Shown here: piece by piece, positions 10,596-62,144 of the stretch | How positions within the stretch are numbered: position 1 is the stretch's first letter | Layout of the letters: the number at the start of each line of letters is the position of its first letter | Source: Prevotella sp. | GTDB lineage: Bacteria > Bacteroidota > Bacteroidia > Bacteroidales > Bacteroidaceae | Assembly: GCA_017449495.1 (NCBI GenBank) | Contig: JAFTFO010000015.1 | Location: 18,289-82,288, forward strand | Reading direction: 5' to 3' | DNA: 64,000 nt | Position numbers and translations under genes: made by a program | Notes under the pieces: generated by a model | Told to the model about the DNA's origin: nothing | The model's input: only the letters and a program-made list of their open reading frames with translations | The model's database searches: none

Positions 10596-10700
10596 CACCT
10601 GAAACGCACAAAAGCGCCTCTCGGAGTCCTCACAATAGACTCCTTAAGAAAATAATTCCCGAAATGCTTGCACGTTTCGGGATTTATGTGTATCTTTGCA
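10564..10700. repeat. Direct repeat copy 1 (deoD 3' end, hairpin, promoter)
   Basis: This 137-bp segment runs from the last ten codons of deoD through its stop, a short spacer, the CCCGAAA...TTTCGGG hairpin and a TATCTTTGC -7 element. It is almost identical to 11926-12061, so the two copies bracket the AAA/DUF4143 ATPase gene. Confidence 0.85.
10649..10700 (+). promoter_or_regulatory. Hairpin-plus-promoter module, copy 1
   Basis: A 52-bp unit holds an inverted repeat (CCCGAAA-N10-TTTCGGG) followed by TATCTTTGC at 10691-10699, which fits the Bacteroidales -7 element for the ATPase gene at 10783. The hairpin may also end the deoD transcript. Two more copies occur at 12010-12061 and 12427-12478. 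Confidence 0.65.
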
Positions 10701-11925: not shown

Positions 11926-12061
11926 ACATGATGGATGTCGCCTTCTCGCTGCTGTAGCACCTGAAATGCACAAAAGCGCCTCTCAAAGTCCTCACAATAG
12001 ACTCTTGAGAAAATAATTCCCGAAATGCTTGCACGTTTCGGGAATTTGTCGTATCTTTGCA
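11926..12061. repeat. Direct repeat copy 2 (duplicate of deoD 3' end)
   Basis: The segment begins 4 bp after the ATPase stop and repeats 10564-10700 with a handful of substitutions, including codons for MMDVAFSLL and the stop of deoD. No deoD body precedes it, so it is an orphan 3' end. It behaves like a long target duplication or attachment-type repeat. Confidence 0.85.
12010..12061 (+). promoter_or_regulatory. Hairpin-plus-promoter module, copy 2
   Basis: TTCCCGAAA-N10-TTTCGGGAA precedes TATCTTTGC at 12052-12060, placing the start of transcription almost on the ATG at 12067 of the next gene. Confidence 0.6.
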
Positions 12062-38780: not shown

Positions 38781-38806
38781 TTATCAATTTTCAATTATCA
38801 ATTTTC
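38781..38806. repeat. AATTATCAATTTTC simple repeat at the end of the giant gene
   Basis: Two to three units of ATTATCAATTTTCA overlap the last codons and stop of the giant surface protein (…GEKIDN stop), so the repeat supplies its terminus. Confidence 0.7.
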
Positions 38807-47800: not shown

Positions 47801-50616
47801 CCATCGATTTTCACCTCGGTATCATTGGTCAATGCCAGCGTCTCAATAAAGGCTATATAAGCAGTCTCACCAGCAAAATATTCCCATTTACTGTGATTGT
47901 CACCTTCACGAATCATACGTGAAGGTTTATTCTCATCATCTGTATAAGCATAAACCAAAGGAAGAATACCCTTACCAGCGCCAAACACATGGCCTGCGTC
48001 ATCAGGTCCATCCTCTTTCTTCATCTGCATCGCAGAACTGGGACCGATCTCGGCATTGCCCTGAATCGTGACAGAACTATTTCCACCGCTTACTAACTCG
48101 TACGGCATTCCTACAGCCACTCCATGAGCCGCTGCTTCTGCCTCATCTTTGGCAACATTAAACCTGCCCACCGAAGCAATCTCGCCACCGCCATAGACGT
48201 TGTTTCTCACCTTGGCATTACCCTGAACGATGACTTTTGCATCGCCACGCACCAGAGCGGCATAGCCATGAGTACGTAAGCCCTTGCCTGCACCGAACAC
48301 ATCTTCTTTGATCTCTGGAGCGCTTGATTCTCCAGACGCAAGACCTATCATCACCTTCGTATCATGTTCCACTCGGCCAATCTGTCCTCCACCATAGACG
48401 GAACCAGTCACCGTACCGTTACCGATGACGACATTTGTACTGCCAATGCCTTGGTCGACGATTCCAACCATGGCTTTCTCGCACTCGAAGGTATCATCTT
48501 TTCCTTTACCACCGCCGAACACACTACCGCCGATCTTGACCTTAGCAGTACCCTCAGCCACAGCCTTATACACCTCTTCATCCTTATCATACTCCGCACA
48601 GATATTCACATGCGTATCACCAGTGACATCAGCCTCATTACCGCCGCCAAAGACATTGCCGGTGATGTTGGCACCCAGAACAGTCTGATCCTCACTCATT
48701 GTATAGCTACTTGTAGACTTATTGTAGCTCTCGTGCAATTGGACCGTAGTCTCTGTGCCGATATTCACCGTGGTGCTACCTTCGACTACAGCCTCGTTGC
48801 CACCGCCATAGACATCGCCAATTGTCCCCAGTTCGGACGAAGAACCCGTTGCCGTTCCTTTAATCATATTGATGTTCACCGTCGGATTGCCGTGTATCAT
48901 CGCATCCGAACCTAAGCCGCCACCAAACACTTTACCGATACGTGTGGCAGAAATGACATTCAGCACAGGATCAGCGTATGGGAACGAGTGAGTTGCATCA
49001 CTTGTAGGATTTGCTACTGGGGCTTTATAATTTTCATCGCTTGTATCTGTTATAGCATGCATTGCTGCCGTCCTTGGCAGATAGACAGGCTTGCCGACAG
49101 TATTGGTCTCTCCGCTGTCATAATAACCATAGATGGAATAAGCAGCCTCATTGCCACCAAGGTATAGCTCATCGATTTCAATAGGACGGCAACCTGTCTC
49201 CTCAATATTCACAATGATGTGACCAAGGATAGCACCACCCAGGTTGTTACCACCGAACACCTTGCCGAAGCTACCGCTGGTGATGGTCAGTTCCACATTG
49301 CCCTTCACATTGGCTTCGTCGGCACCACCATATAGTTCTGCGGTCTTGGCCTCAGGCATACAACCCATGACCAGTATCACATCGCCTTCGATGTCGGCAT
49401 ACTTACCGGCACCCACCACCTTATCTACTCTCAAAGCGCAACAATAGCCTGCGTCACCGTCAGATAAGGGGTTCGTCGTCAAGTTGATGCTGCCCTTGAT
49501 GACACCTTTCATGTTACTGCCGCCATATGCCTCATGAATAAGACCAGCCTGAAGCAGGGTATTGGGAATACCTGTACCATAGGTCACTAAATCTCCGTTG
49601 CTATTCTTATATTGTCCCACGTCGGCACCGGGGTTGGCTGAACCATCACTCAAGTTATCCTTTCCGTTGCCACCACCATAGACATATCCAATTTCGTAGG
49701 CACCCAATATTTCCACGTTCGATTCAGGAACAGAAGCAGCATTGCCACCGCCATAGACCGTTTCTATGCTCGTCAGCTCACAGCCTTCGATGATAACCTG
49801 TGTCTTGGCCCCATTGGTGGTGGTCGTCGTGGAAGTGTTTGGTGTCATTGGCACATATGCCGCCTCATTACCACCGCCATATACGGCCTTCACATCGTAA
49901 GCGCCCGTAACAGTCTCAGCACTTGTGTTGCGTACATTTGTCTTTATATTTTCCGTCGCTGCGCTCTGAGTAGCATACACATGTACTTCCACATTTCCTT
50001 TAGGGGTACCGTTCACATTGTTACAGCCAAAGATGTTGCCTCCAACGATACAGCCTTTGGCTGTCTCAGCAATAGAACTGTATACGTCTCCAGACTTTGT
50101 TCCATTCAGAACGACCATCACATCACCATAGACCAACGGCACCTTTTCTTCAACGCCAGCAACAGCCTGGGTCTTAATCGTTGTAGTTGTTACAAAGCCA
50201 TCTTGGCCTTCAGTCAATCCATGTTCTGAATTGTAAGCATCGGCTTCTTCTTGACTATAATAAACAGCAGCCGTTCCTTCCTTAGCTAACTGTCCCAGTC
50301 CGCCACCATAGGCATTGCCTCCTATCGTACCGCCCGTCAAGTTAACAGTAGTTGTATTAGCAGTCGTCGATGAGATTGCCTCGCTATCTGTGTCATAGCC
50401 TGTAACATTGTTGATATTGGTGTCTGCAAAGGCGCCACCGCCATAGACATCTCCAGTCACTGTACCGGCACTCATGTTTACCGTCACATTGCCGCCGACG
50501 GTTGCCAGATTGCCGCCACCGAAGACGGAGCCGTTAACCGTGACCTGGCCCATTGCCACACCATTCACCAGCAGCATCGCCGCCATAAGCACTGATTTCA
50601 GTCTGTTTCCGTTCAT
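38791..50616 (-). CDS. Giant YGGG-repeat surface protein
   Basis: ATG 50616 (MNGNRLKSVLMAAMLLVNGVAMGQ) gives a typical signal peptide; the in-frame ATG at 50679 does not. The product is about 3,941 residues. It consists almost entirely of units of the form (V/I)xGxTxVNI...GxVxGxVYGGG, suggesting a long beta-solenoid on the cell surface. A long-range period is also visible: the landmark GC(N/A)N(N/L)NGTPKG block occurs near 50,020, 45,030 and 40,090, so units of about 1,650 residues (4.95 kb) are repeated about 2.3 times. No C-terminal sorting domain is visible, and the end lies in a simple repeat, so the protein may be truncated. Confidence 0.85.
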   Translation of the reverse strand: MNGNRLKSVLMAAMLLVNGVAMGQVTVNGSVFGGGNLATVGGNVTVNMSAGTVTGDVYGGGAFADTNINNVTGYDTDSEAISSTTANTTTVNLTGGTIGGNAYGGGLGQLAKEGTAAVYYSQEEADAYNSEHGLTEGQDGFVTTTTIKTQAVAGVEEKVPLVYGDVMVVLNGTKSGDVYSSIAETAKGCIVGGNIFGCNNVNGTPKGNVEVHVYATQSAATENIKTNVRNTSAETVTGAYDVKAVYGGGNEAAYVPMTPNTSTTTTTNGAKTQVIIEGCELTSIETVYGGGNAASVPESNVEILGAYEIGYVYGGGNGKDNLSDGSANPGADVGQYKNSNGDLVTYGTGIPNTLLQAGLIHEAYGGSNMKGVIKGSINLTTNPLSDGDAGYCCALRVDKVVGAGKYADIEGDVILVMGCMPEAKTAELYGGADEANVKGNVELTITSGSFGKVFGGNNLGGAILGHIIVNIEETGCRPIEIDELYLGGNEAAYSIYGYYDSGETNTVGKPVYLPRTAAMHAITDTSDENYKAPVANPTSDATHSFPYADPVLNVISATRIGKVFGGGLGSDAMIHGNPTVNINMIKGTATGSSSELGTIGDVYGGGNEAVVEGSTTVNIGTETTVQLHESYNKSTSSYTMSEDQTVLGANITGNVFGGGNEADVTGDTHVNICAEYDKDEEVYKAVAEGTAKVKIGGSVFGGGKGKDDTFECEKAMVGIVDQGIGSTNVVIGNGTVTGSVYGGGQIGRVEHDTKVMIGLASGESSAPEIKEDVFGAGKGLRTHGYAALVRGDAKVIVQGNAKVRNNVYGGGEIASVGRFNVAKDEAEAAAHGVAVGMPYELVSGGNSSVTIQGNAEIGPSSAMQMKKEDGPDDAGHVFGAGKGILPLVYAYTDDENKPSRMIREGDNHSKWEYFAGETAYIAFIETLALTNDTEVKIDGNALVKGSVYGGSENGHVREDTHVTIAGGQIGCGKNATGGRHDASVWGEDYIVPEGTDLECDSWDYLGDHEPYDIYKDSDGNGTPDYATDGHTFYGNVFGGGRGYYPYRKNPNWTPKEAGSSVDVNGYSDGLWLSSAGAVYRNTVVDITGGHILTSVYGGNELTNVTGSCTINMTGGTVGVPRTLDQMQGHPVTCSLYGAGKGDQRINFNTWTNVASTQVNISGNARIYGSTFGGGEDGHVLGNVETNIGGTITIGSTEYPYSKVIIGTTGTSGVDGNVFGGGRGFSETALTAGVVGGNVSVNIHNGTMLGTVFGGGRLASVGTNFADATNTEKYGKMQVDEGTDTHGHINITIDGGTIGATTESGALTSSNFTIGDVYGGGKGSPNNDLRFGLTKTTTITMSGGHVNGSVYGGGEVAVVEGNATITINGGEVGDRVTKKGGDKIGNVYGSGKGNLSEAGAGLVKGNTSVTIEKGESTTPTIYHNVYGGGSYGSVGDFTLRDDGSPGSCTSGGTAEITITGGTIGTDGDENGMVFGSSRGDVQMAKDGQDPNNKLAWVNTANVIIGIQGSETGPQINGSIYGSGENGHVLGNANVAIHSGTIGIASGTAVNGLSGVAFPNRGNVYGGGCGTDYFTVDGKNYFNKTSGIVRGNTTVTMDGGHVVRNIYGGGAMGSVGGYSRTTKGDDDPYKDNDYVPAVLADNATGICTVTISGGQVGVDGNGNGMVFAAGRGQVVDPAEYPNYDRVIFTNNTELTISGTATIKGSVYGGSESGHVWGDTKVTIAGGTVDNSVFGGGEVGYVRGAVKVSVTDGQITHDVYGGGALASTQTGNWDETNKTWATGKTSASKTTIVNLTGGTIGGDAYGGGLGQKEYGTADQTGYVSPVEAMVYGDVKVELNNIKKVNGDMDEDAKGCAVSRVFGCNNLNGTPKGKVQVYVYATQKIGGENIADKADKNTNAYDVAAVYGGGNLAKYEPVDALFTYNDANKATVDAARPEVYIDGCGLTSIKQVYGGGNAAPVPATYVEINRVYEIDEAFGGGNGYDDYSLQEGGSTVWYQNPGANVGYYTYADYPKTSGQGSGTQADPYEAVQWEDYNDEGGANKDKRLAATDIQFGSGIATLVVKGGTVHTSYGGSNSKGNVRAKLSSTYSAMYDDCPMEVTTSYGGGKNAYSDADAEVSADCAKGVTEMFGGAKDADFNGNISLTITNGSSLERVFGGNNTSGAVNGSITVTIKEGGCEPIRIGSLYAGGYLADYSVYGYNADKTVKESGTRLYADPRINVISATYIGNIFGGGYQAKLVGNPHINVNMEPGRILAKFNPTVGDHEDYSHQAYKVESIEEGTGDGILPVGTIGNIYGGGNLADIVGNTYVEIGTGKWVKLDAEGNEVEETLTRNAAKITGNVFGGGKGEADEFTCAKAMVGVDGDGVDHPNGGTNVIIGNGTIGGNVYGGGEIGRVEKNTVVTIGLAADDVPEGLTSLPVIAGSVFGGGKGKETHGYAALVRGNPAVTIQGKAKVKGNVYGGGEIASVARYQVVNGVPVALAQVKEGQHSGYCTVIVKDNAEIGPDGMKMYHPEITDGTDKPDDWGHVFGAGKGILPENYTYADNENRPKRMMAYDSEKYNTSNSAYWEYSDTEHENVWEYFPNRDKYIEFIQTLALATHTDVTIEGNAFVKGSVYGGSENGLVQYDTDVKIKGNCQIGEGEGANGRYSDGDWASTSLAGCAHWEYDPSSGAPYDPYAKYLKDGKYYYDEGCTEYAEGGSYIAKDGHTYYGNVFGGGSGSVPYFDNTLGRSVYLNSAGTVKGNTKVTISGGHILTSVYGGCEATNVLGTAKVTMTGGTIGVPRTEDEIQAHPVICNLFGAGKGDQRIFFNKDTNVENAEVSVSGTAKIYGSVFGGGEDGHVMKNSTVTIGDGANIGTLGYSGFDGNVFGGGRGFGGDALTAGNVGGDVEVNITGGTMLGSVYGGGRLASVGYGLYLVDEVVDNEKPYGVMREDGKDDNGNSVGGFTRGHVKVNVSGGIIGNDVESTDTHTKGGNVFGGSMGRLTLLNGDINPIWPKLAKVKSTEVKISGDAVIKNNVYGGGELGTVHTTSKVSVEGGTVNGDLFGGGYGSDDYTTKTTYDGVDYIPMQLAGRVDGTTTVEVKDGSVKENVYGGGEMASVGTYTVTTDMRTFTWGDPYNNTGVCDVTVTGGKIGTEGSSDKGHVFGAGKGLSNTFWCEAAIVYGTNVNISGGTVNGNVYGGGEVGRVETDTEVKVDGNAEVKGNVFGAGAGLETHGYSALVRGDTKVTVEGTAQVGHSVYGGGEIASVGKYGLDTNNEPSILLGGGICDVNVQGNAKIGENVFGAGKGVTPHFDKENTDHSLRSRRMTVYTNTTDFPAGKENETWEYYKPGSSFVWDYFVDEPTYSTYLETLALATHPDVTIDGSATVKGSVFGGGELGLTKGSVVVNIKGGTVEEDVYGGGSLANTNTTSTVGHTNADGTVETETVHPTTTVNLLGGTIRNAYGGGLGRMADATNNITAIEALVYGDVNVNLNGTTTITTAATGNKTYTPSPNDPTKKGCVVKGNVFGANNVNGTPKGHVLVYVHGTQNENTSAINAKVDDSYDVAKVFGGGNQADYVPTSDEEYAEVIIEGCDLTSIEEVYGGGYGAATPATNVLIKGTEIIDNVFGGGYGAGADNPGANIGYKTGTTEEYGTGKTSVRLMAGNVNNVYGGSNTLGNVRGGTSVRNVANTSDPGCCDKLDVGNVYGGGKEAVMEGGAEIVLGCMPNDWIEEIYAGSREANVGNDVSLTLTSGKFGRVFGGNMSSGTIDGSITVNIEENPECETPLVIGELYGGGNEAPYTIPDSFGADYPSPRVNVRSFTSIGNIYGGGYGRTATVTGNPTVNINEVIVDEGRADDYDVKATTETVPENLSWVKDIILPHKAGKMGVINNVFGGGNAAKVVGNTYVNIGTTTEEDFESERLPNGTVPKRPVVGADIRGNVYGGGNAADVTGKTNVVIGEKIDN

Positions 50617-50659
50617 CACGATATGTCTGTATTTCTTATTCTTGAGTCGTATCTTTATA

Positions 50660-50959
50660 TTATTTGTATATCTCCTCACTCACGGCGCGGATGTTCATAC
50701 CCGTGTGCTCGTCTTCTTCGTAGTCAGTAAGCATCTGGGCTATCTCCTCGGGGTGGAAGGTCATGTCGATGTTGAAGTCTGCAGAACGCCGCCAAATCAT
50801 ATAGAGCGTTGTTGTCTTGCCATATTGCCGTGCACGGTTGATGGTGAAATACTCGCCAGCATCAATCAGGCCTTCCACAGCCTCAAAACGCTTCTTCGAG
50901 TTCACCATATAATGCCTTTCTGGGTTGCAACTGCCTGTTATATTGAACTTCTTCCTCAT
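50660..50959 (-). pseudogene. Truncated, internally deleted AAA-type ATPase remnant
   Basis: The 99-residue frame starts MRKKFNITGSCNPERHYMV and keeps the P-loop-like INRARQYGKTTTL. It then jumps from IWRR to DFNIDMTFHPEEIAQMLTDYEEDEHTGM, a region that in the AAA-ATPase family lies over a hundred residues further on. It stops right after VSEEIYK, where relatives continue YTSGYPFLVSRLC. The P-loop is present but the rest of the ATPase is not, so it is probably non-functional. It lies between the tail-bearing KilA-N gene and the giant gene. Confidence 0.75.
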
Positions 50960-51018
50960 TGCCTTCTCTTGTTCTTTATCTTGAATTCTCTATTCTTACT
51001 TTCCAATTCTTATATTCT

Positions 51019-51066
51019 TCACTGCTCAATATTCACCGTCGTGCTGCCACTGACAGGGCCATCGTC
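51019..51066. repeat. Tail repeat E (KilA-N gene 3' end)
   Basis: The coding sense GTCAGTGGCAGCACGACGG... is followed by AATATTGAGCAGTGA and then AGAATATAAGAATTGGAA after the stop. The last two parts are shared almost exactly with the YhcG gene end at 51926. Confidence 0.85.
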
Positions 51067-51888
51067 GCTGCCACCAAAGAGACTTCTATTGCTGTCATCG
51101 TTGAGCACTTTCATTTGCTGGATGGCTATCTGGTTGAGTTTCACAAGTCGCTCACCCTGAGGAACGCCGTCATTGATAAGCACAGCATTGATGTTCTCCA
51201 TATTAGAGAGGCATATCAGTTCGTTAATGGTGGCATAATCACGAATATTACCCTTCAGTTCTGGGTTGGCATCCCTCCACTGTTTAGCAGTCATGCCGAA
51301 CATAGCAACGTTCAGCACATCAGCCTCCTCGGCATAGATAATACTGGCCTGCGCCTTGGTCACTTCTGCTGGTACGAGGTTCTGCTTGATGGCGTCGGTA
51401 TGTATGCGGTAGTTGATCTTAGACAGCTCGCGCTTGGCCGACCATCCAAGTTGTTTTTGCTCCTCAGCCTTCAGCCGCTGGAACTCCATAACCAAGTAGA
51501 GTTCAAACTCTACAGACACCCAGTTAGCAAACTTAAAGGCGATATCTGTTATGGCATAAGTTCCACCATTACGACCCGTAGTAGATGTAATTCCAATAGC
51601 CGATGTCAATTCCACCCATCTTGAAGGACTCATTGTGAAGGAGTTACTACCTGCCTCTGTCAAAAGGGGGTCGAATTCGACCCCGTTAAATTGGGGGTTA
51701 TGCAGTCTCTCCCAAAGCCCCAGATACTCCAGGGTGTTCTTCTGACGCATCCAGTTCTTGACAACATCCTTAGGCTCTGCAGCATTTCTCTGCTTGGCTA
51801 TGTCTGTGATGCAGAGGTAGTCTGTGCCATTGACCTTCATCGTCCTTATACTCATGTCCTTGACTATTATCTCACCTTTCTTTGCCAT
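51019..51888 (-). CDS. KilA-N domain protein with a GSTTVNIEQ tail
   Basis: The 289-residue protein has an N-terminal KilA-N DNA-binding domain (DYLCITDIAKQRNAAEPKDVVKNWMRQKNTLEYLGLWE, about 20-120). A helical C-terminal domain (NINAVLINDGVPQGERLVKLNQIAIQQMKVL, about 235-265) is common in Bacteroidales relatives. Relatives would be expected to end soon after MKVLNDD. Here the frame continues GGSDDGPVSGSTTVNIEQ, which matches the repeat vocabulary of the neighbouring giant proteins. The role is unknown; the family is frequent in mobile and phage-like DNA. Confidence 0.85.
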   Translation of the reverse strand: MAKKGEIIVKDMSIRTMKVNGTDYLCITDIAKQRNAAEPKDVVKNWMRQKNTLEYLGLWERLHNPQFNGVEFDPLLTEAGSNSFTMSPSRWVELTSAIGITSTTGRNGGTYAITDIAFKFANWVSVEFELYLVMEFQRLKAEEQKQLGWSAKRELSKINYRIHTDAIKQNLVPAEVTKAQASIIYAEEADVLNVAMFGMTAKQWRDANPELKGNIRDYATINELICLSNMENINAVLINDGVPQGERLVKLNQIAIQQMKVLNDDSNRSLFGGSDDGPVSGSTTVNIEQ

Positions 51889-51925
51889 ATCTTGTTCTTA
51901 TTCCACATTCCAATTCTTATATTCT

Positions 51926-51970
51926 TCACTGCTCTATATTCACCGTCGTGCTGCCTTCTACATTACCCTG
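51926..51970. repeat. Tail repeat D (YhcG gene 3' end)
   Basis: The coding sense GAAGGCAGCACGACGGTGAA is followed by TATAGAGCAGTGA and AGAATATAAGAATTGGAA beyond the stop. Confidence 0.85.
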
Positions 51971-53125
51971 GTCACCATTCACTATGGAGTTGCTCTCAAA
52001 TTCCGCCTCAATATCCTCGATACTTGGCAGCGTAGAACGCAAGTCATGAGGCAAAGCCTGACCAAGTTCATAGTCGGAGATACCTATTGGCTTGCAGATG
52101 TCCCTTAATGCGTATTCTGCCTTAATCTTATCCTTAGTTTTGCATAGCAATAACCCAATGGTCTTATTATCACCTTCGCGACAGAGGATATCATCTACAG
52201 CAGAGCAATAGAAGTTGAGTTTTCCGATGTATTCCGGTTTAAACTCAGTATCCTTCAGTTCTATCACCATGTAACGGTGCATGAAGGCATTATACATCAG
52301 CAAATCTATATAATAATCGTCGCCAGAAACAGATATATGGTACTGACGGCCCATAAAGCCAAATCCTGCTCCCATTTCAACGAGGAACTGCTGGACATGC
52401 TTTACTAAACCAATCTCCACGTCACGCTCATTGTATTCGTCCGTAAAAGTGAGCATGTCAAAGATATAAGGATCTTTAAGCAATGATTTTACACCTTCGG
52501 CCTCAGTTGTTGGCAAAGTCGCATCAAAGTTGTTGGCTAATGCACCATGTTTACCATAGAGGTCAAGCTTAATTGCTTCAGCAAGGTAATCTTTGCTCCA
52601 ATGAGAAGTAAGACACTGTATCATGTACCAATAGCGAGCCTTAATATCTTTCACACGTTGCATAAGAATTACATTATGCGTCCAATGGATATGCCGGATT
52701 GGCAACGAGAAATTGTATTCCGGTAATTGTGCAACCGCCGGTTGCACAATTGTATTATTATGCAATTGAGTTGTCAAACCTGAATTATCTTGCAATTTTG
52801 CAACTGCCGGTTGCACAACCGCCTTTGTCATTGTCAATTCTTGGTTATATTCCAAGAAAAACTCAATCATACATCTGAGATTCCTGACAGAGAATCCTTT
52901 CTCACGCGGATATTCATTCTTCATGTCTTGTGACAGCCGGACAAGCGTACCCTTTCCCCATCCTTCTGCCTGCTGGGCAGAATATAGCATTTTCCCCAGA
53001 TCCCAATACATCCGAAGCAATTCCTCATTGGCAGCATAGATCGCTCTTTGCTGTGCCAACTCTACACGTCTTCTCACTTGTTTGAGCAACATGGAGTAGT
53101 TTAATATGCCATTCTCTATATCCAT
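51926..53125 (-). CDS. YhcG/DUF1016 PD-(D/E)XK nuclease family protein with a GSTTVNIEQ tail
   Basis: The 399-residue protein has the DUF1016 N-terminal helical region (LLRMYWDLGKMLYSAQQAEGWGKGTLVRLSQDM...FSVRNLRCMIEFF). A C-terminal nuclease-like domain follows (GFGFMGRQYHISVSGDDYYIDLLMYN and YMVIELKDTEFKPEYIGKLNFY, with the D...ExK core). Residues about 100-135 contain a doubled VVQPAVAKL/IVQPAVAQL segment encoded by near-palindromic DNA (52725-52751 and 52799-52815). The family end SIEDIEAEFESN is extended by GDQGNVEGSTTVNIEQ. Restriction or recombination roles have been proposed for the family; none is shown here. Confidence 0.85.
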   Translation of the reverse strand: MDIENGILNYSMLLKQVRRRVELAQQRAIYAANEELLRMYWDLGKMLYSAQQAEGWGKGTLVRLSQDMKNEYPREKGFSVRNLRCMIEFFLEYNQELTMTKAVVQPAVAKLQDNSGLTTQLHNNTIVQPAVAQLPEYNFSLPIRHIHWTHNVILMQRVKDIKARYWYMIQCLTSHWSKDYLAEAIKLDLYGKHGALANNFDATLPTTEAEGVKSLLKDPYIFDMLTFTDEYNERDVEIGLVKHVQQFLVEMGAGFGFMGRQYHISVSGDDYYIDLLMYNAFMHRYMVIELKDTEFKPEYIGKLNFYCSAVDDILCREGDNKTIGLLLCKTKDKIKAEYALRDICKPIGISDYELGQALPHDLRSTLPSIEDIEAEFESNSIVNGDQGNVEGSTTVNIEQ

Positions 53126-53149
53126 AGTTTTTATATCTTTCTACATTCT

Positions 53150-53208
53150 TCACTCCTCGATATTCACCGTGGTGCTGCCGCTGACGGCGCCTTCATTGCC
53201 ACCGCCAT
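53150..53208. repeat. Tail repeat C (native-looking 3' end of the 1.8k-residue gene)
   Basis: The coding sense reads GGCGGTGGCAATGAAGGCGC... to GGCAGCACCACGGTGAATAT and the stop, then AGAATGTAGAAAG. Here the tail is a natural continuation of the YGGG repeats, so it is the likely source of the tails on the neighbouring unrelated genes. Confidence 0.75.
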
Positions 53209-56200
53209 AGACATTGCCATTGATAATTGTATTCTTCTTCAGGTTTACCTCTGTGTTTCCTGTGACAGGGGCACTGTTGCCGCCACCATAGACATTATAG
53301 GCGTTATAGCCCTCCGTCTTCTGGCTAATAGCCTCAATGGTTACCTCGGTATTACCTGTGACACCCGAAGCATCGCCACCACCGAAGATACCGCCCTCCT
53401 GTTTGGTGGTTATCTCACCCTCGTCATCAAGTTCATAACCCTTGATAAGTGTGTTGCCATCGATGTTCAATTTCACAGTACCCGTGACCCTTCCAAGGTC
53501 GGATAACGGGGTAGAAGTATAGATGAGATGGGTATCGCCGCTATCGTAGAAATATTGTAGTGAAGAGCCGGTCAGTGTAAACTTACTGGCATCGTTGGTC
53601 CAGGTGTATTTCACAGTGGCGGGATACTTCACTTGGTCATCATTGAACACACCGGCATTACTATCGTAGTGAGGAGCGACTACAAAGTTCTCATTGTTCA
53701 TTACATCAATGGTAGGTGTTGTGGCTGAGAAACCAGCCCCAAACGCACTACCCTCCACTGTGCAATTGGTGAGTGTAGAAATAACATTGCCATTTACAGA
53801 CCCCAGACTACCGCCGCCATAGAAGTTCTTGCTGATAGTACAGTCGGTCAGTGTGGAGGTGACATCCTTTGTCGAGGCAAGCGACAACGACGCATAGTTG
53901 ACGTAGAAACGACCAACCCTGTTGGAACCGTCAGAATTAATGATATATTCATACTCATAACTGGTGCCAATTCCACCATATGTCGAATTATAAGCACGTT
54001 TGTAATTCCCGTCTCTCCATGTATTCCACGTATTTTCATTAGATATATTTGTATCTATATGACCATATCGATTATAGGCATTACCACCAAATCCAGCTCC
54101 GAAATAGTTTCCAAAGTAACAACCAGTAGCATTGGTGGTGACAGTCTTGCCCGTAGCCATGTCGCCGAACTTCGGACCGCCATAAAAATTGGTCACCCAA
54201 CTATTAGTAATGGTAGTGTTGATGTTACCTGTAATCGCCTTTGTTGGATTGATGCCGCCACCATAGAAAGCTTTGATGTCGGCTCCATTGATGAGCCATG
54301 TTACATCTCCATCAATAAGTTGCATACCTGCGCCTGCTACTTCGCCAAAGCGTCCACCATCAATATAGCACTCTGCATTTTCTTTATAATAGGGAGCATT
54401 TGGAGTATAAATGCCAGAGAGATAGAACTTGTTGTAGTCACCACCTGATGCAGAGATGGGAGTCTTAGGTGTTTTTAAGGATGTATTGGTATGGCATCCG
54501 TTATTGAATTCATTAAACCATACATTGCCGCCAACATGGATGTAGGGCGTGTTGCCAGCCTCCGAAGAGCCTGTCTTTTCTGTTGAGACAATCTGCTCGA
54601 TGACACCACCCATCAGAATCAGAGGAGCAGAAATAGTCTTTATATTCTTCTGGCCATATTCAAACTGGCTAAGGCGTATTAGGGCAGTATTTGTTATTTC
54701 AAACCACCCTTTAGGTTTGAAAATACCAGCCTGCCTATATGCTGAAGATCCATAAGGCTTCAAGGCCAACGCAATTGCTGGCATCGTGATGAAGTCAAAA
54801 CGGATGGGTGTAGTATTTCGGCGTCCGCTGTGGGCATAGAACAGGCAGTAGTCTGGCTCGTTGTCGAAATTCAGGTCAGCCGACATGATAGTCATCGGGT
54901 ATACATTGTTGCCTCCCGGGGCAGATTCACCAAAATCCTTATGATAGTTGCCTACTAAGACGATAGCTTTGTCATAGACGTTATTCGAACTGCTCGGAGC
55001 CAGTGCCGCCCGCGCATTGTCGAAAGTGGTGTAGACCACCTGATTGTCACCGTTGATGGGATAGGAACTGCCATTGGTGTAGTGGGCTGTAGTAGACTGT
55101 TTCTCTGCATAACCAGTACTATAGGTCACATCGAGGGCGGCATCAGCCAGATATACACAGTCAGCCCAATAGGGTTCGATGTCAATAGCGGTTACACCGT
55201 CGGGCACTTCGTAGTACGCCCCTTGTGAGAACACCCTATTGCTGCCATCAGTACCGTAAAGATCCTTGTTGGTGCATTTGCGATCAACGAAATTGTAGGC
55301 TGGCGCATCAATGCCTTCGGTGAAACTACCAGGAGTTCCGCCTGTAAAGTCAGAAATCTTCCATCCCGTCACCACCTTGTTGTGGGTATAATTGCCCGTG
55401 CCCACCTCATTATAATAAGGTAGTTGCACCTTGCGGTAGTTGAAGTCGTAGTGTTCCGTATCCTTGTCGGTGATGTTAAGTGTAAGGCTGCTCTTGCCCT
55501 CTCTCAGTGCAGCACCAATGGGATAACCTGTACCCAAACTAATATTGACCTCCAGAGTGCCAAACTTGCGCCCCTTGTTGTGGTTCACTTTCTCATCGCC
55601 AATATCAACGGCATTGGCAGCGTCATGGTTCACTACCGACGGGTAGGTACCCTGTAGCTTAAGAATGGGGTAAGGCGTGTCCGTGCCAATTTGCGATGGC
55701 TCCAGCACCCACTTGGCCATGATATTGTTTTCACCCTTGCCGTCGTCGGCATTGCCCGTAATATACCATGCAGCCAACTCACGGTTGGAGTTCAGCGTAT
55801 GGCGGAAGAACTCAAAGCGATCCAGATAGCGGTCTTCAGCACCAAGGGCACAATTATAGTGGTCAATGCTGCCGACATAAGGTCGGTTGAAACGGAAGTA
55901 ATTATAATTGTTCAATCCCCGGTTCGTGTCGTTTGCAGAGAAGTTGTTGATGCTCTTACCATTGTAAACGGGCGCCTTGTCGCCCGTGGCGGTGATGTCG
56001 CCGTAAAACATACAGTTCATTACCATCGTCATCAGGTTAGCAGAAGTTGAAGCATAATTGTTATAGCCCACAATACCACCGACGTAAGTACCTCCGGTGA
56101 TATTTGCATAACTGAAACAGTTGATGACACGTGCAGCACCATCAAGAAGTCCGACAAGCCCACCACAGTAGTCATCAGAGCTTCCAACACTGCCACTCAA

Positions 56201-58681
56201 AATACCCACATTATATATTCTGGCATTTTCTGTTGCTTCGGCACAGATGGCTCCTACCTTACCACTGGCGCTGATACTGACGTTCTGCAAATTCAGATTA
56301 CGTACAACAGATGATCCGCTCATCTTTGCAAAAAGTGGTGCAGAGAGTCCACTAATAGTATGGTTGTCTCCATCGAGCCAACCTTTAAAATCGGTAATAT
56401 CAGCAGGTACATTATCAGAACAGTCAGCCGTCAGCCTATAATTGCCCGAAGCATCAGCAATCTCCGACAATGAGGATATCTCAGTAAAACTGGATGGAGT
56501 TGTAGACAAAGGATACAAGTTGAATGCCACACTTTTATTGTTACTTAACTTCTTTTCAACTGTGAATACACGTTCAACCTTGTCTACTGTTAAGGTATAA
56601 CTTCCTACATCCACAAAGGCTTCACATTTCACGGTGCCTAAAGTATTGGATACTGGCATACTGTTGACTGAGACTGCCAGTTTACCATCTCCATTGGTGC
56701 TGTTATCAGTAGTGGTAACATAACTATTGATACCACTCACAGTCCACTTGTATTTCACTGGTAACTTGGTATAAGTTTTTGCTATTTCAAGGTCTCTGTT
56801 ATTAACAGGAGATCCAACTATGTTACGGGAATAGTACGTAGTTGCAGTGAAATTATAAGTACCTATTCCCGATGCGTCGTTAGGACCGTTGAGCGTCCAA
56901 TCGCTCTTGAGACGATTCTCGGCCTCATAAGCATATATTTTCCATTTCGAATCGCCATTACCTTTCCAAAGACTGATTACTTTTGGTGTAGTATAGACAT
57001 TCCATGCACAGCATATTCCATCATTGATAATACCGTTGTCACCTTCGCTGCGTCCCACCACAAACTGCAAGTCGTAAGGAATGATAGTCTGGCAGACTCC
57101 ATAGGTATTATGGTTCGCTGGCTGATAAAGGCGGAATTTGTATCGATTGTCGTCAATTGGCAGTGATGTACTTCCAACCTTTATGACACCATAGTTGGAG
57201 CCATGTGTAAAGTCGGAAGCATCATAATAAAGGTAGCGTCCTGTTTCTATATTTTTAAAGGACACAAAGCCTTCTGCGTCTGCTTCAACCTTCCAACTAA
57301 TCTGTTCATTGGGATCAATATCGGGATCTGTTAAGACGTCTTTCTTACTCTCAGGATTTACCGCATCATCCACACTCATGTCATTAGTATCATACGGAAA
57401 ACGGTAGTTGGCTTCCTTTGTGTAGAAAAGGAGGTAATTCTTGGCAGGGTCTGGAGTCAGTGCCGCTGGTTGTATCTTCAAAGTCACATCAACATCAACC
57501 GCAACATGATTGTTTGCGGCAATGGGGTCACATGAGGTGAGGGTGTAGTTGGCTGTTACTGACACATCGCCAGAGGTCTGCTTGCTGTAGATGACGGCAT
57601 TTGTCTCGTCAATATCCCATGATGTACCCCGACTGGTATTGGTGGTTGACTTAAACGTAAGTCTCTGGAATATACGGGAGTCCTTTTTATCAATAACTTT
57701 CTGATTGGTTTTACCGGCATCATCTTTAAGAATAGTTGCTGTGATGTTGTGGATATAATAAACACGCATAAAAGTAACCAATTGTGGGGAGCGAACAGTA
57801 TAGGAAACGTCTTTTGGTCCTTCCCACTTGTTGTTATTCTCTTCAATGGTCATCTCACAGACGGCGTATTTGTTGGAAAGGTTCTCTGGTTCATCAAGGA
57901 CAGGAGTACCTCCGCTATTTAGACCTACTATCTTAGTGGTCCCTTGCTTTTGCAGTCTGGTTTTATCGCCATCAGTTACAAGGTCCCATTTGGTGGAGGG
58001 CTTGTCAGAAAGTATAAGCGTACCATTAGCCTCACAGAGATAGTACATATCATTGGTGAGGTATCCTTCTGATGAATATACCCATATAGAGTAGCCGTTT
58101 CCATCATAAACGTTTTCATAACGGAAAGTTCCGTCATTTGCCACTGCCGCATGACGCTGTTTCATATATCCTTTGCCGTTAGCATGGAGGGCATAATAAG
58201 TGTAGGTAACAGCATCTCCTGGCCCTTTTGCGCCTTCACCTCTCTTCTGTACCTGAAAGTTAGCGCTCTTCACCCAGAAGGCAAGTTTTGGGTCGATGGC
58301 AGCGGTATATGTACGCTTTGAGGATATGTCCTTGAAGTCATCACTTACAAGGTCGAGTTTGTCAGAGGCTGTGACGGCGCGGGTGGAGCTGATGTCGGCG
58401 GGGGCGACGGCATAGACCTCGAGGCCGTCCTTCGCCAGGGTATAGCCGTCGGAGGGAGTCACAGAGATGGTCACCTTACACGTGCCGTCCTGATCTTCTT
58501 GAGCAATCAGAATCGTGCCGCCCGTCAGCCCTTCTTTCTGGCTGATGGTGATCGTGCCGTCTGTGCTGGGATTCAGTTCCAAGCCCTTCTCTCCGTATAA
58601 CACCTTTACGTCTGCCCATGCCCCGATGCTGACCATCATCAGCAGGGCGATGGAAAGAAATCTCATCAATGTCTTATTCAT
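53150..58681 (-). CDS. Large surface protein with GLUG-like and YGGG repeats
   Basis: ATG 58681 (MNKTLMRFLSIALLMMVSIGAWA) gives a clear signal peptide; the in-frame ATG at 58708 lies next to the previous gene's stop. The 1,843-residue product has an N-terminal domain typical of Prevotella surface proteins (DVKVLYGEKGLEL...SDGYTLAKDGLEVYAV). A RICIN-like stretch (about 170-290) and GLUG-type repeats follow (about 770-880, e.g. GGLVGLLDGAARVINCFSYANITGG, VGGIVGYNN). The C-terminal region of about 300 residues has YGGG units and ends VYGGGNEGAVSGSTTVNIEE. It could be the first part of the same ancestral protein family as the giant downstream. Confidence 0.85.
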   Translation of the reverse strand: MNKTLMRFLSIALLMMVSIGAWADVKVLYGEKGLELNPSTDGTITISQKEGLTGGTILIAQEDQDGTCKVTISVTPSDGYTLAKDGLEVYAVAPADISSTRAVTASDKLDLVSDDFKDISSKRTYTAAIDPKLAFWVKSANFQVQKRGEGAKGPGDAVTYTYYALHANGKGYMKQRHAAVANDGTFRYENVYDGNGYSIWVYSSEGYLTNDMYYLCEANGTLILSDKPSTKWDLVTDGDKTRLQKQGTTKIVGLNSGGTPVLDEPENLSNKYAVCEMTIEENNNKWEGPKDVSYTVRSPQLVTFMRVYYIHNITATILKDDAGKTNQKVIDKKDSRIFQRLTFKSTTNTSRGTSWDIDETNAVIYSKQTSGDVSVTANYTLTSCDPIAANNHVAVDVDVTLKIQPAALTPDPAKNYLLFYTKEANYRFPYDTNDMSVDDAVNPESKKDVLTDPDIDPNEQISWKVEADAEGFVSFKNIETGRYLYYDASDFTHGSNYGVIKVGSTSLPIDDNRYKFRLYQPANHNTYGVCQTIIPYDLQFVVGRSEGDNGIINDGICCAWNVYTTPKVISLWKGNGDSKWKIYAYEAENRLKSDWTLNGPNDASGIGTYNFTATTYYSRNIVGSPVNNRDLEIAKTYTKLPVKYKWTVSGINSYVTTTDNSTNGDGKLAVSVNSMPVSNTLGTVKCEAFVDVGSYTLTVDKVERVFTVEKKLSNNKSVAFNLYPLSTTPSSFTEISSLSEIADASGNYRLTADCSDNVPADITDFKGWLDGDNHTISGLSAPLFAKMSGSSVVRNLNLQNVSISASGKVGAICAEATENARIYNVGILSGSVGSSDDYCGGLVGLLDGAARVINCFSYANITGGTYVGGIVGYNNYASTSANLMTMVMNCMFYGDITATGDKAPVYNGKSINNFSANDTNRGLNNYNYFRFNRPYVGSIDHYNCALGAEDRYLDRFEFFRHTLNSNRELAAWYITGNADDGKGENNIMAKWVLEPSQIGTDTPYPILKLQGTYPSVVNHDAANAVDIGDEKVNHNKGRKFGTLEVNISLGTGYPIGAALREGKSSLTLNITDKDTEHYDFNYRKVQLPYYNEVGTGNYTHNKVVTGWKISDFTGGTPGSFTEGIDAPAYNFVDRKCTNKDLYGTDGSNRVFSQGAYYEVPDGVTAIDIEPYWADCVYLADAALDVTYSTGYAEKQSTTAHYTNGSSYPINGDNQVVYTTFDNARAALAPSSSNNVYDKAIVLVGNYHKDFGESAPGGNNVYPMTIMSADLNFDNEPDYCLFYAHSGRRNTTPIRFDFITMPAIALALKPYGSSAYRQAGIFKPKGWFEITNTALIRLSQFEYGQKNIKTISAPLILMGGVIEQIVSTEKTGSSEAGNTPYIHVGGNVWFNEFNNGCHTNTSLKTPKTPISASGGDYNKFYLSGIYTPNAPYYKENAECYIDGGRFGEVAGAGMQLIDGDVTWLINGADIKAFYGGGINPTKAITGNINTTITNSWVTNFYGGPKFGDMATGKTVTTNATGCYFGNYFGAGFGGNAYNRYGHIDTNISNENTWNTWRDGNYKRAYNSTYGGIGTSYEYEYIINSDGSNRVGRFYVNYASLSLASTKDVTSTLTDCTISKNFYGGGSLGSVNGNVISTLTNCTVEGSAFGAGFSATTPTIDVMNNENFVVAPHYDSNAGVFNDDQVKYPATVKYTWTNDASKFTLTGSSLQYFYDSGDTHLIYTSTPLSDLGRVTGTVKLNIDGNTLIKGYELDDEGEITTKQEGGIFGGGDASGVTGNTEVTIEAISQKTEGYNAYNVYGGGNSAPVTGNTEVNLKKNTIINGNVYGGGNEGAVSGSTTVNIEE

Positions 58682-58714
58682 ATCTCGTGTCATAACTTTC
58701 ATTTCCACTTTTCA

Positions 58715-58752
58715 CTATTTATTATTCACCGTCGTGCTGCCACTGATTCGGT
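58715..58752. repeat. Tail repeat B (RhuM gene 3' end, diverged)
   Basis: The coding sense ATCAGTGGCAGCACGACGGT is followed by GAATAATAAATAG, a diverged end compared with the other tails. Confidence 0.75.
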
Positions 58753-59668
58753 TTATGAGTTCCGTTGCCGTTATGTCGTGCATTAGGGTGAAGGCGAACC
58801 ACTTCCTCCCCAAATCCTTCAGCGAGGCCCCGATGTGATACACCTCCTCGTCTATCAACAAGAAACGGTCGTGAGCACGATTGAAGTGCTCTATAGCAAT
58901 GGGCGCATACTGCTCATTATGGCGTTCGATGTCCAACTGCAGCTGCTGGCTGACATGCTGCGTGTATATCGTAGCACTTACACCTTCGACTCGTTTATCA
59001 AGCATAGCCAGCACCGAGTCATCCACATAATTATCTATTAATACGACGCGACTCTTTGCCTTACGAACCAGGTCGTTCACAAAGCGGTAGGCATCGAATA
59101 TCTGGCCGTCGTAGAAAATTCCCTCTACAGGAGGCTGATTCGTCCGCACGAAGAAGTCTATCTTCTCCTGATGGTCAGCCAGAGCTGACTCTATCTTTTG
59201 AAGCCTATTTTGCTGAGTTTCCAGCTTTGTGTCAATTCGCTGCTCTAAGAACATCAGTTGTCGATTAAAAGCATAGCCATGAAGAAGATGCTCCCTTATA
59301 ACGCCTGTAGCCCACTGACGGAATTTAGTACCACGCAATGACTTGACACGGTATCCTACAGAGATAATGACATCAAGATTATAATATGCAACTTCATGGG
59401 TCTGCTTTTTCCCGTCTATGGCACCATGTTGGGTGGTAGTTCGATTTTTTCGAACAACCACTTTCTCGTCCAATTCTCCTTCTTTGAAGATATTAGAAAT
59501 ATGGAAACTAATTGTGGACTTTGCCTTTTGGAAAAGAGCCACAATCTGCTGCTGCGTCAGCCACACGGTATCATCCTCCAGCCTGACCTCGATTCTTACA
59601 GTCTCATCAGGCTGGTAGAGAATGATCTCTCCCTGCTGCACTGTCTGTGGATGTATCTCGTTCGCCAT
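58715..59668 (-). CDS. RhuM family protein with a GSTTVN tail
   Basis: The 317-residue protein has the RhuM-type DNA-binding region (DDTVWLTQQQIVALFQKAKSTISFHISNIFKEGEL and YYNLDVIISVGYRVKSLRGTKFRQWA). A C-terminal phospholipase-D-like domain seen in some relatives follows (VVLIDNYVDDSVLAML...HNEQYAPIAIEHFNRAHDRFLLIDEEVYHIGASLKDLGRKWFAF). It ends LINRISGSTTVNNK, again adding the repeat-derived tail. The role is unknown. Its stop is 34 bp before the next gene's start. Confidence 0.85.
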   Translation of the reverse strand: MANEIHPQTVQQGEIILYQPDETVRIEVRLEDDTVWLTQQQIVALFQKAKSTISFHISNIFKEGELDEKVVVRKNRTTTQHGAIDGKKQTHEVAYYNLDVIISVGYRVKSLRGTKFRQWATGVIREHLLHGYAFNRQLMFLEQRIDTKLETQQNRLQKIESALADHQEKIDFFVRTNQPPVEGIFYDGQIFDAYRFVNDLVRKAKSRVVLIDNYVDDSVLAMLDKRVEGVSATIYTQHVSQQLQLDIERHNEQYAPIAIEHFNRAHDRFLLIDEEVYHIGASLKDLGRKWFAFTLMHDITATELINRISGSTTVNNK

Positions 59669-59738
59669 ATACTTCTTATCTTACCTCTTCCGTCTTACAT
59701 CTTACATTTTACATCAATTCTCAATGTTCACCTTTGGA

Positions 59739-59972
59739 TCACAAAGTGTCTGTGACAATTTCATCGTTAAACATCTGATATAAAGCCACAGGTCCCAAAT
59801 GCCACATTTTTGTTTGCTCACATTCAAGGTTCTTGTATGTCATGGAGTTATAGAACTTCCTCAATCCGTCAAGCAAGTCGACAGCATTCTCATCCACGTA
59901 TTTACCTACAACAGCGGACACCTTTCCTGGTAGCAGCAGAAACACATTCTTATCAGTAATCTCTGGTATCAT
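59739..59972 (-). CDS. Small protein of unknown function next to a DUF3791-like gene
   Basis: The 77-residue protein (MIPEITDKNVFLLLPGKVSAVVGKYV...) is mostly helical with a conserved-looking ECEQTKMWHLGPVALYQMFNDEIV end. I do not recognise a family with confidence. It follows the DUF3791-like gene by 22 bp, an arrangement often seen in small toxin-antitoxin-like groups of Bacteroidales, but that is inference. Just after its stop, in another frame, a degenerate copy of the tail (KVNIEN stop) is visible at 59718-59740. Confidence 0.55.
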   Translation of the reverse strand: MIPEITDKNVFLLLPGKVSAVVGKYVDENAVDLLDGLRKFYNSMTYKNLECEQTKMWHLGPVALYQMFNDEIVTDTL

Positions 59973-59994
59973 ATCGTCACCTCCTTGCTTTCTA

Positions 59995-60210
59995 TCATTG
60001 TCCTCTTTTCTTTATATATTCATCAATATCCTGCATCAGCCATGAGGCGCCTTGTGTATGAAGCACGTCATAGTGCTTCGCTAAGTACTCTGTCACTCCA
60101 TTCTTGTCGAACAGTTCTAACGCCTCACTGCCCGACAGTCCTTTCTCCATCTTGTATTGCTCCAAGCAGAAAGAGACAAAGTACAACATATCAAATTCTT
60201 CTTTTCCCAT
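59995..60210 (-). CDS. DUF3791-like small protein
   Basis: Starting at ATG 60210 the product is 71 residues (MGKEEFDMLYFVSFCLEQYK...). It has the DUF3791 pattern of an N-terminal helix, SGSEALELFDKNGVTEYL and a final YDVLHTQGASWLMQDIDEYIKKRG. A longer frame from a TTG at 60243 would overlap the upstream gene's tail and is unlikely. DUF3791 genes commonly sit beside small ADP-ribosyltransferase-like or other partners; the adjacent 77-residue gene may be that partner. Confidence 0.65.
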   Translation of the reverse strand: MGKEEFDMLYFVSFCLEQYKMEKGLSGSEALELFDKNGVTEYLAKHYDVLHTQGASWLMQDIDEYIKKRGQ

Positions 60211-60232
60211 ATCCAAGTTTACATTTCTTCCA

Positions 60233-60268
60233 TCACTGCTCAATATTCACCGTCGTGCTGCCACTGAC
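60233..60268. repeat. Tail repeat A (AAA/PD-(D/E)XK gene 3' end)
   Basis: The coding sense GTCAGTGGCAGCACGACGGT is followed by GAATATTGAGCAGTGA; similarity to the other tails fades after the stop. Confidence 0.85.
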
Positions 60269-61156
60269 CTCTATCCGGCACGTATGCTGCTTGGTCTGGC
60301 GGTCGTAGTTGATGCCCACGAGCAACAGGCGGTCTGTGTATTCCTGCAATTTGGCGGGATAGTCCTTACGCAGGATCTGTGAGATGGCCGTATCGGCATC
60401 CTTGTTCACCTTCAACTCCAGAACGATAGCCGGTGAATCGACGTTTTTGCGAGGAATGAGCACCATGTCGGCAAATCCCTTTCCTGTTGCCAGTTCTCGG
60501 TGCATCACATAATCATTCTTGGCATAGTAGTAGGCGATGGAAAGCACACAGGCCAGCGAGTTCTCTGCTGAAGCAGAGCGACCATAGGTCGAGCGCTCAT
60601 TGTTATAGCTCAGGATACTGGTGTTCTCGTCATGAGCTGCTTCGATGCCACGGGCCACAGCCTCCTCGTCGCCATCGAGTGTTGCCTGAAGCAACTGCTC
60701 CGAAGCGTTGAGAGCCTTCACAACCTCCGTCCAGTTATTATCCTCAACGGCATTCACCATCTCGCCCGCCACCTCCTTATTGGGAATGTAACACTCGCTC
60801 TTCTGCCAACTATAGCTAAGATAGCCCAGGTGGATGAGTACCGTCAGCGCATCGTCCTTGCTGCGTATGATGGACATGTCGTTCTGGAACTTGGTTGGGT
60901 TCACCTTGCAGCGTCCTCCCGCCAGCATATAGATAATGTCATCCTTCAAACCATCGAAGTTCATATTGATATAACCAGCCACGGCATCAAAGGCACCCGT
61001 AGCGGCCCAGAAACTGCGACAACGAGTCACGCAGCCGAACCGCCGCTCCGTGAAAAGCGTACCGTTCACCACTGCAATCAGTCCCGACTTATCCACGTAC
61101 TCCCCATTTCGGGCAGACTGGAACCCGACATTACCTATATTGATATATGTTCCCAT
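60233..61156 (-). CDS. AAA-ATPase-like/PD-(D/E)XK protein, internally shortened, with a GSTTVNIEQ tail
   Basis: The 307-residue frame starts MGTYINIGNVGFQSARNGEYVDKSGLIAVVN...CVTRCRSF, the family N-terminus where the P-loop (FGKS) normally follows. It then jumps to WAATGAFDAVAGYINMNFDGL, about 250 residues further in relatives, so the ATPase core is lost. The C-terminal nuclease-like part is kept (GKGFADMVLIPRKN, AIVLELKVNKDADTAISQI, LLLVGINYDRQTKQHTCRIE). Relatives end soon after CRIE; here it continues VSGSTTVNIEQ. It is first in the minus-strand array. Confidence 0.8.
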   Translation of the reverse strand: MGTYINIGNVGFQSARNGEYVDKSGLIAVVNGTLFTERRFGCVTRCRSFWAATGAFDAVAGYINMNFDGLKDDIIYMLAGGRCKVNPTKFQNDMSIIRSKDDALTVLIHLGYLSYSWQKSECYIPNKEVAGEMVNAVEDNNWTEVVKALNASEQLLQATLDGDEEAVARGIEAAHDENTSILSYNNERSTYGRSASAENSLACVLSIAYYYAKNDYVMHRELATGKGFADMVLIPRKNVDSPAIVLELKVNKDADTAISQILRKDYPAKLQEYTDRLLLVGINYDRQTKQHTCRIEVSGSTTVNIEQ

Positions 61157-61190
61157 AACCGTTTTTCGCGTTCATCTTATATAATATAAT

Positions 61191-61199
61191 GCAAAAGTA
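61191..61199 (-). promoter_or_regulatory. -7 element upstream of the minus-strand array
   Basis: The minus strand reads TACTTTTGC 35 bp before the ATG at 61156. No comparable element was found in the short gaps (6-70 bp) between the following array genes, so a very long transcript is possible. Confidence 0.5.
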
Positions 61200-61274
61200 A
61201 ACAAAATATCAGAGACAGACAAGCTTTTAGATTAAAAATTTCTTAAATATAGGGTTTTGACGATATATTTTCAG

Positions 61275-61282
61275 TACCTTTG
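61275..61282 (+). promoter_or_regulatory. -7 element of the HU-like gene
   Basis: TATATTTTCAGTACCTTTGC ends 29 bp before the ATG at 61312. The same TATATTTT-AGTACCTTTGC pattern precedes the VirE-like gene. Confidence 0.55.
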
Positions 61283-61311
61283 CGGAAAATTCTTTAAAAA
61301 TCATACTAATT

Positions 61312-62009: not shown

Positions 62010-62071
62010 ATATTTAAAATCGCGCCCTTCGCGCCCCTTTGATGGTTAAACAATTGATTTTCAGCAGAGTA

Positions 62072-62106: not shown

Positions 62107-62144
62107 CGCGCCCCAACCGCGCCCCTCAAAAATTTTAACGTTAG

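Follow-up and report, generated by a model that had tools for sequence, protein, structure and literature searches.

In a 64,000-nucleotide stretch of a Prevotella sp. genome (assembly GCA_017449495.1, contig JAFTFO010000015.1, positions 18,289 to 82,288; hereafter the window), four unrelated accessory proteins carry a C-terminal tail that resembles the end of a neighbouring surface protein. They belong to the KilA-N, YhcG/DUF1016, RhuM and PDDEXK_9 families, and their genes lie in a minus-strand array with two surface-protein genes. These tails are probably scars of insertion, with long target duplication, by nearly bare open reading frames (ORFs). We read the tails as target duplications because members of the same families are flanked elsewhere by repeats of local DNA, at two sites with relatives that lack the insert. 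The common factor is the type of inserted ORF together with the local duplication, rather than the surface gene.

Read along the minus strand from 61156 to 38791, the array consists of a decayed PDDEXK_9 gene, a DUF3791 gene, a 77-amino-acid gene, RhuM, surface protein A, YhcG/DUF1016, KilA-N, an AAA remnant and surface protein B. The KilA-N (51019..51888), YhcG (51926..53125) and PDDEXK_9 (60233..61156) proteins end in GSTTVNIEQ, and RhuM (58715..59668) ends in GSTTVNNK. Surface protein A (53150..58708), which contains VYGGGN-type repeats, ends in the tail-type sequence SGSTTVNIEE. The tails span about 51019-51075 in KilA-N, 51926-51988 in YhcG, 58715-58744 in RhuM (SGSTTVNNK, behind a native part ending in RI) and 60233-60268 in the PDDEXK_9 gene, where the protein reads TKQHTCRIE followed by VSGSTTVNIEQ. 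At the DNA level, the core GGCAGCACGACGGTGAATAT matches the minus strand of the window at six places with at most three mismatches; it has no match on the other strand and none in 100 shuffled sequences. Five matches are located at 51029, 51936, 53160, 58722 and 60243, and the sixth (48761-48780) is an internal tail-type motif of surface protein B, a 3,962-amino-acid ORF (38791..50679). Within the source genome (an assembly of 47 contigs, 68% complete), an 18-base core is found in five copies when one mismatch is allowed, every one in the array. The KilA-N and YhcG tails are identical at 47 of 48 base pairs (bp), and the match extends beyond the stop codon. The KilA-N gene is thus enclosed by a 48-bp direct repeat with a flank score of 45, of which the 5' copy (51908..51955) is the tail, stop and spacer of YhcG and the 3' copy (51001..51048) is the tail, stop and spacer of KilA-N itself. 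The KilA-N tail is also 80% identical to the end of surface gene A over 66 bp. An earlier note, made from the sequence of this window alone, had reported four accessory proteins with the surface-type tail and a KilA-N/YhcG similarity running past the stop, and we confirm both.

The accessory families end about where the tails begin, as the same note had proposed. Relatives are present in 60 of 150 genus genomes for KilA-N and in 77 of 150 for YhcG (the source genome included), and none of those found in the genus genomes aligns with the tail of the window KilA-N or YhcG protein. Full-length KilA-N relatives stop aligning near residue 271 of 289. For YhcG, homology stops near residue 379; no alignment extends beyond residue 391 of 399, and those of the six closest relatives end at 375-389. 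The C-termini of the relatives agree with these limits: KilA-N relatives end in NRNLLK, YhcG relatives in IE.EF or similar, and four RhuM relatives outside the tail-bearing clade in IR, LY or IEKD. Eleven of 12 AAA-PDDEXK relatives, which have CRIE-type ends, finish no more than 8 residues past the C-x-I position, and the remaining one finishes 21 past.

The tail was also sought elsewhere. A 30-base tail pattern had no exact match in the species-level genome collection, and with at most three mismatches the only match among 200 genus genomes was in the source genome. A megablast search of window positions 50400-53300 against plasmids matched nothing. The earlier note had named, as evidence against its reading, relatives with the same peptide and no surface gene nearby. 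Such relatives were not seen among 105 RhuM, 44 YhcG, 37 KilA-N and 4 AAA ORFs (copies from the window locus included); the peptide pattern occurs only in the window array and in genome G013, there beside a surface gene. We note that this pattern overlooked the tails of genome G259 and a degenerate tail in G032, both also beside surface genes. Selection for a functional peptide, for example a sorting or interaction tag, would fit the fact that all eight clear fused tails are in frame. This explanation is nevertheless very improbable, as the tail was not found in sampled relatives away from surface genes, the PDDEXK_9 relative shared by locus L127 and G032 has a sequence resembling a surface-gene start instead, and the tail copy at locus L055 is non-coding.

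Integron gene cassettes are one-gene units in one orientation that share a short sequence, the folded site at which an integrase acts. The window array likewise contains one-gene units in a single orientation, several of which end in a common short sequence, and each tail might be a site for integron-like recombination borne by its cassette. However, the window repeat is local target sequence, no hairpin was folded at three tails (z -0.37, -0.04 and 0.55), Rfam has no match in 50000-62500, and no integrase is among the Pfam matches of the eight array genes scanned. In addition, the tail sequence varies between genomes, and the duplications elsewhere are unrelated in sequence, which leaves site-specific recombination of this kind with hardly any likelihood. 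The Pfam matches of the window genes also contain no transposase domain, and no search was made for terminal inverted repeats.

Direct repeats around the same families at other loci carry the reading of the tails as target duplications. The 5' flank (-300 to +30) of each gene was locally aligned with its 3' flank (-75 to +300), and non-simple repeats with a score of at least 20 were counted. The sample comprised 80 RhuM loci from named Bacteroidales records (7 of them unframeable) and, from the genus, at most 30 homologue loci per family for YhcG and KilA-N. Genes with a neighbour of their own family (31), redundant genes (8) and genes with short flanks (8) were excluded. Flanking repeats were detected at 23 of 143 accessory genes; among control ORFs the count was 18 of 996, and permuted pairs gave 2 of 713 (Fisher 1e-11). 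The positives include RhuM (14/72), YhcG (5/37) and KilA-N (4/32) but no AAA gene (0/2), and the window itself contributes two of the 23. Five of eight control positives checked against PADLOC (of the 18) are themselves defence candidates: PDC-S01 (the window ATPase described below, L074 and L110), PDC-S27 (L085) and PDC-S05 (L198). A further one, L076, is an ATPase by Pfam. Two other proteins compared in the same way, from L048 and L071, come from simple-repeat matches outside the 18. In a separate scan of 578 ORFs (the window together with 40 stretches of 20 kilobases (kb) taken from G045 and G000), 10 matches scored at least 18, and four of these are in the window: KilA-N, YhcG (score 26), the ATPase and its small neighbouring ORF. 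A first version of the flank test (42/174) was inflated by tandem paralogues and was redone without such genes, and an apparent copied gene end behind RhuM at L071 proved on inspection to be tandem RhuM genes.

In the clear cases, the repeats copy local DNA of whatever kind over 30 to about 130 bp, and they are longer and more variable than transposon duplications; the 48 bp around the window KilA-N fall within this range. At L097, RhuM has identical 36-bp terminator-like flanks, and the repeat provides the RhuM stop. At L063, the repeat around YhcG (2204-3445) is 76 of 77 bp of the following gene's 5' end. RhuM at L139, one of the genes left out for a same-family neighbour and hence outside the final count, has an identical 47 bp on either side, ending in TTTGC. 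The flanking copies elsewhere derive from quite dissimilar local DNAs, namely hsdM/hsdS, pepP-mdh, and terminator-like and promoter-like stretches. A role of the surface gene or its tail as a dedicated capture site is not borne out, since the same families elsewhere are flanked by unrelated local DNA and the tail copy at L055 is non-coding.

Two sites can be compared with relatives that lack the insert. In G127 (L143), a YhcG gene with 69% identity to the window YhcG lies between hsdM and hsdS, and the final 30 bp of hsdM recur behind it (29/30 bp). The insert comprises the ORF, 25 bp ahead of it and 7 bp behind it. In G019 (L311), where hsdM is 73% identical, the stretch is single, with two substitutions relative to the first copy, and hsdM overlaps hsdS by ATGA; in G073 (L310), hsdS also lies directly behind hsdM. 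Thus, a single copy of the target in an insert-free relative is seen for YhcG. At the second site, in G118 (L195), KilA-N lies between the divergent pepP and mdh genes, and a 117-bp flanking repeat corresponds to the first pepP bases and the promoter region. The pepP part had matches in 121 of 150 genomes, and the 29 best loci besides G118 were examined: mdh lies 152-406 bp from pepP at 15 and was not found in the examined stretch at the other 14, and KilA-N is present at none. Here, what the relatives show is the absence of the insert. The hsdM, hsdS, pepP and mdh genes were identified by eye. The same hsdM/hsdS boundary holds a 345-amino-acid gene in G023 and G100 (L312 and L313; DUF1016-like by eye) and a 229-amino-acid gene in G072 (L309).

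These insert-free relatives at single genes elsewhere are not covered by a deletion scenario, in which a whole surface gene once stood behind each accessory gene and lost its body, leaving the last codons fused. Tandem surface genes with accessory genes between them do exist, and the internal repeats of surface genes could favour such deletions. Because one lost surface gene is required for each tail (four in the window and three in G259), we regard deletion as unlikely.

A second case in the window involves deoD. An AAA_14/DUF4143 ATPase gene (10783..11922, plus strand), identified as PDC-S01 by PADLOC, has a copy of the deoD 3' end on either side according to the flank alignment. The first copy (10564..10700, plus strand) contains the last deoD codons, the stop and the downstream region, and the second (11926..12061, plus strand; G000:C23:30214-30349), 93% identical, lies directly behind the ATPase gene. 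A third, shorter copy (12421-12478, plus strand; G000:C23:30709-30766) covers the terminator/promoter-like part. The deoD-end motif is single in six of 10 relatives' deoD loci (L264, L265 and L267-L270), and at L266, L271, L272 and L273, where deoD is present, it was beyond the mismatch limit. The duplicated region is in part a dispersed promoter- or terminator-like repeat. This repeat (CCCGAAATGCTTGCACGTTTCGGG then TATCTTTGC, about 10650-10703) is also found on contigs C24, C46 and C47 of the source genome (G000), and several copies lie within ~22 kb of G018 C12. The small ORF at 12025-12393 is located behind the ATPase gene and ahead of the third copy. In G033, a further deoD 3' end is found on another contig (L263, G033:C63, about 18549) besides L264 (G033:C32), perhaps another deoD insertion.

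The surface gene is present in 18 of 149 genomes, the source genome included, and 17 loci from 15 of these were examined. Accessory genes lie between two surface genes in five loci (L045, L049, L052, L054 and L055), and L053 and L060 have two consecutive surface genes with no recognised accessory gene between them. In G013 (L052, the same record as L061), the surface protein ends in VEGSTEVNIEE and the next gene, RhuM, ends in RIGGSTEVNIE. At L055, RhuM has kept its own stop; behind it lies a non-coding copy, 123 bp long and 93.5% identical, of the surface-gene end and spacer. The RhuM end at L049 (SSSATA) is a degenerate tail at best, L054 has merely a short non-coding tail resemblance, and the YhcG gene at L045 has none. 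The L055 locus (G072:C14:38000-57857) holds an island of ~11 kb, bounded by a surface gene on each side, that contains three RhuM and three YhcG-like genes; some of these genes are flanked by repeats that by eye resemble surface-gene starts.

A second array was found in G259 (L063/L323), in the order surface A, RhuM, YhcG, a 166-amino-acid gene, a 179-amino-acid gene and surface B. Surface A ends in VSGNATVNIQN, RhuM in SSNGTANGEE, YhcG in GGGDEAPVSGNGTLKIED and the 179-amino-acid gene in VFGDGNEGIASGNGTLKIEN; the 166-amino-acid gene has no tail. Three of the four accessory genes thus carry tails of that genome's own type. Across 11 gene ends from three genomes, the mean score is 28.5 within a genome (17 pairs) and 17.7 between genomes (38 pairs; label permutation p 0.0003), a clustering that is driven by the window and G259 and is weak for G013. 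With this clustering and the tails of a second genome, the earlier proposal of repeated insertions that leave the terminal codons of a surface gene gains support. An assembly chimera was considered as the source of the array and is unlikely, because G013 and G259 carry tails too. Another locus, L127 (G261; identical protein in G032), has a PDDEXK_9 relative that is homologous to the window gene as far as the same CRI and then continues into codons resembling the beginning of the surface gene that lies two genes further along. This resemblance points in the same direction, namely that the tail is duplicated target. At L063, the RhuM N-terminus (1149-2093; MTQDMSN) resembles by eye the start of a neighbouring gene (3442; MTQDMRK), which would place neighbour-derived codons at the N-terminus too.

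The proposed sequence of events is as follows. A nearly bare ORF (RhuM, YhcG, KilA-N or a similar stand-alone gene) would insert at a gene boundary, and local target DNA would come to flank it on either side; in the window array, this DNA would be the last 8-20 codons of the surface gene with its stop and spacer. The upstream neighbour would be left whole. A newcomer losing its own stop at the join would read into the second copy and acquire a surface-derived C-terminal peptide. Several insertions, followed by recombination among the repeated tails within the locus, would then give the array. We infer that the window array arose by this process; the order of events and any reason for the keeping of the frame belong to the same reconstruction.

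Several observations weigh against this reading. All eight clear fused tails (four in the window, one in G013 and three in G259; peptides read) are in the surface reading frame. Random joining predicts one third, for at most six independent joins since the RhuM joins coincide, and plain target duplication does not explain these in-frame joins. The window accessory tails are no closer to the surface A end than to one another, the PDDEXK_9 gene heads the array without an upstream source for its tail, and the G013 RhuM tail scores 23 with the window RhuM tail and 19 with its own surface end. The insert-free relatives at hsdM/hsdS and pepP-mdh are other species, not sister strains. In the flank test, duplication was undetected at 120 of 143 accessory genes, and some positives (L078 and L098) repeat RhuM's own sequence, not target DNA. 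The ORF scan left the window RhuM and PDDEXK_9 genes unflagged, and AAA-PDDEXK_9 genes elsewhere, which we do not count as support, had flanking repeats in none of the 12 with flanks (13 genes picked by motif at 30 loci). As a guess, the frame bias may come from selection for translation to terminate at the former stop, close to the following start, or from recombination that spreads one good join.

Recombination could also account for more than this. Because surface-gene leaders and tails would be common to the units of the locus, ordinary homologous recombination may swap, duplicate and move units of leader, ORF and tail within and between strains, with the first fusions as rare accidents that later spread in frame. 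Such cassette exchange preserves the reading frame. The RhuM join is at the same residue in the window, G013, G259 and the degenerate L127/G032 copy while the tails differ by genome, which is expected if tails are homogenised locally, and surface-type codons apparently occur at the RhuM N-terminus of L063 (MTQDM, by eye). Left unexplained are those members of these families that elsewhere lie between duplicated stretches of hsdM, promoter or terminator DNA, and we consider recombination as the full explanation rather doubtful.

Insertion with long target duplication was reportedly described by Nobusato et al. in 2000 for restriction-modification genes of Helicobacter pylori. It is known for Helicobacter restriction-modification genes from two papers (PMC1643837, PMC3031569), which describe genes within long, variable target direct repeats, seen by comparison with an insert-free genome, as in our case. 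Unlike the Helicobacter inserts, those described here are single-gene candidate defence families of Bacteroidales, the duplicated DNA may encode protein and be joined in frame with the newcomer, and several insertions are found at one surface-gene boundary. The nearest functional idea may be offered by the Rpn (YhgA-like) nucleases. Among them, rpnC seems to have moved into the gap between panC and panD on two occasions, and RecA-independent recombination increases when Rpn proteins are overexpressed (PMC5350276). Rpn genes are single PD-(D/E)XK nuclease genes, a likeness that for the window genes is predicted from sequence; they are another protein family, and the available part of the report on them does not mention target duplication (PMC5350276). 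The window YhcG has a YhcG_C PDDEXK domain by Pfam and is a predicted nuclease. In the open-licence literature, we found nothing on target duplication and direct repeats with KilA-N, or on RhuM with KilA-N in Bacteroid, which is no proof of novelty. The same literature likewise yielded nothing that combines target duplication with toxin-antitoxin, phage defense and Bacteroid; with Prevotella it yielded other elements only, and none of the listed 'long target duplication' papers, judged by title, names these families.

The window accessory genes are PADLOC phage-defence candidates: KilA-N (PDC-S22), YhcG (PDC-S02), RhuM (PDC-S05) and the DUF4143 ATPase (PDC-S01). We tentatively propose, with some doubt, that such stand-alone candidate anti-phage genes may be mobile single ORFs without transposon ends, which insert at gene boundaries, perhaps by their own nuclease or DNA-binding activity. 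Long target duplications would keep both neighbours intact, and at repeat-rich surface genes the result would be in-frame chimeric proteins with scars as tails. This may be a concrete and testable way for single defence-like genes to enter genomes and gather in islands without integrases or transposons, and local direct repeats around genes can be used to find such insertions. It also serves as a caution, since an unusual terminus on such a protein can be a scar of insertion and not a functional domain: if the mobile-ORF reading is true, insertion scars turn into protein tails at surface genes.

The remaining features of the array, all on the minus strand, are as follows. The PDDEXK_9 gene had been described as an AAA/PD-(D/E)XK gene; its PDDEXK_9 part stands (PF08011, E 2.2e-9), but the AAA part is mostly missing, and the protein has 307 amino acids compared with 520-584 in 12 relatives and 409 in L127. 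It is followed by a small DUF3791 gene without a tail (59995..60243; PF12668) and by the 77-amino-acid gene (59739..59972), which has no Pfam match. The degenerate, non-coding tail copy that had been reported behind the latter (about 59707-59740) is recognisable as a resemblance, but a weak one. Surface protein A, previously given as 1,843 residues, has 1,852 amino acids counted from the first GTG. An apparent AAA-ATPase remnant of 99 amino acids (50660..50959) was recognised by eye from the L054 gene and has no Pfam match. Beyond an HU-like gene, a CTCTATCTTC-like unit occurs in runs at about 61930-62370 of the window.

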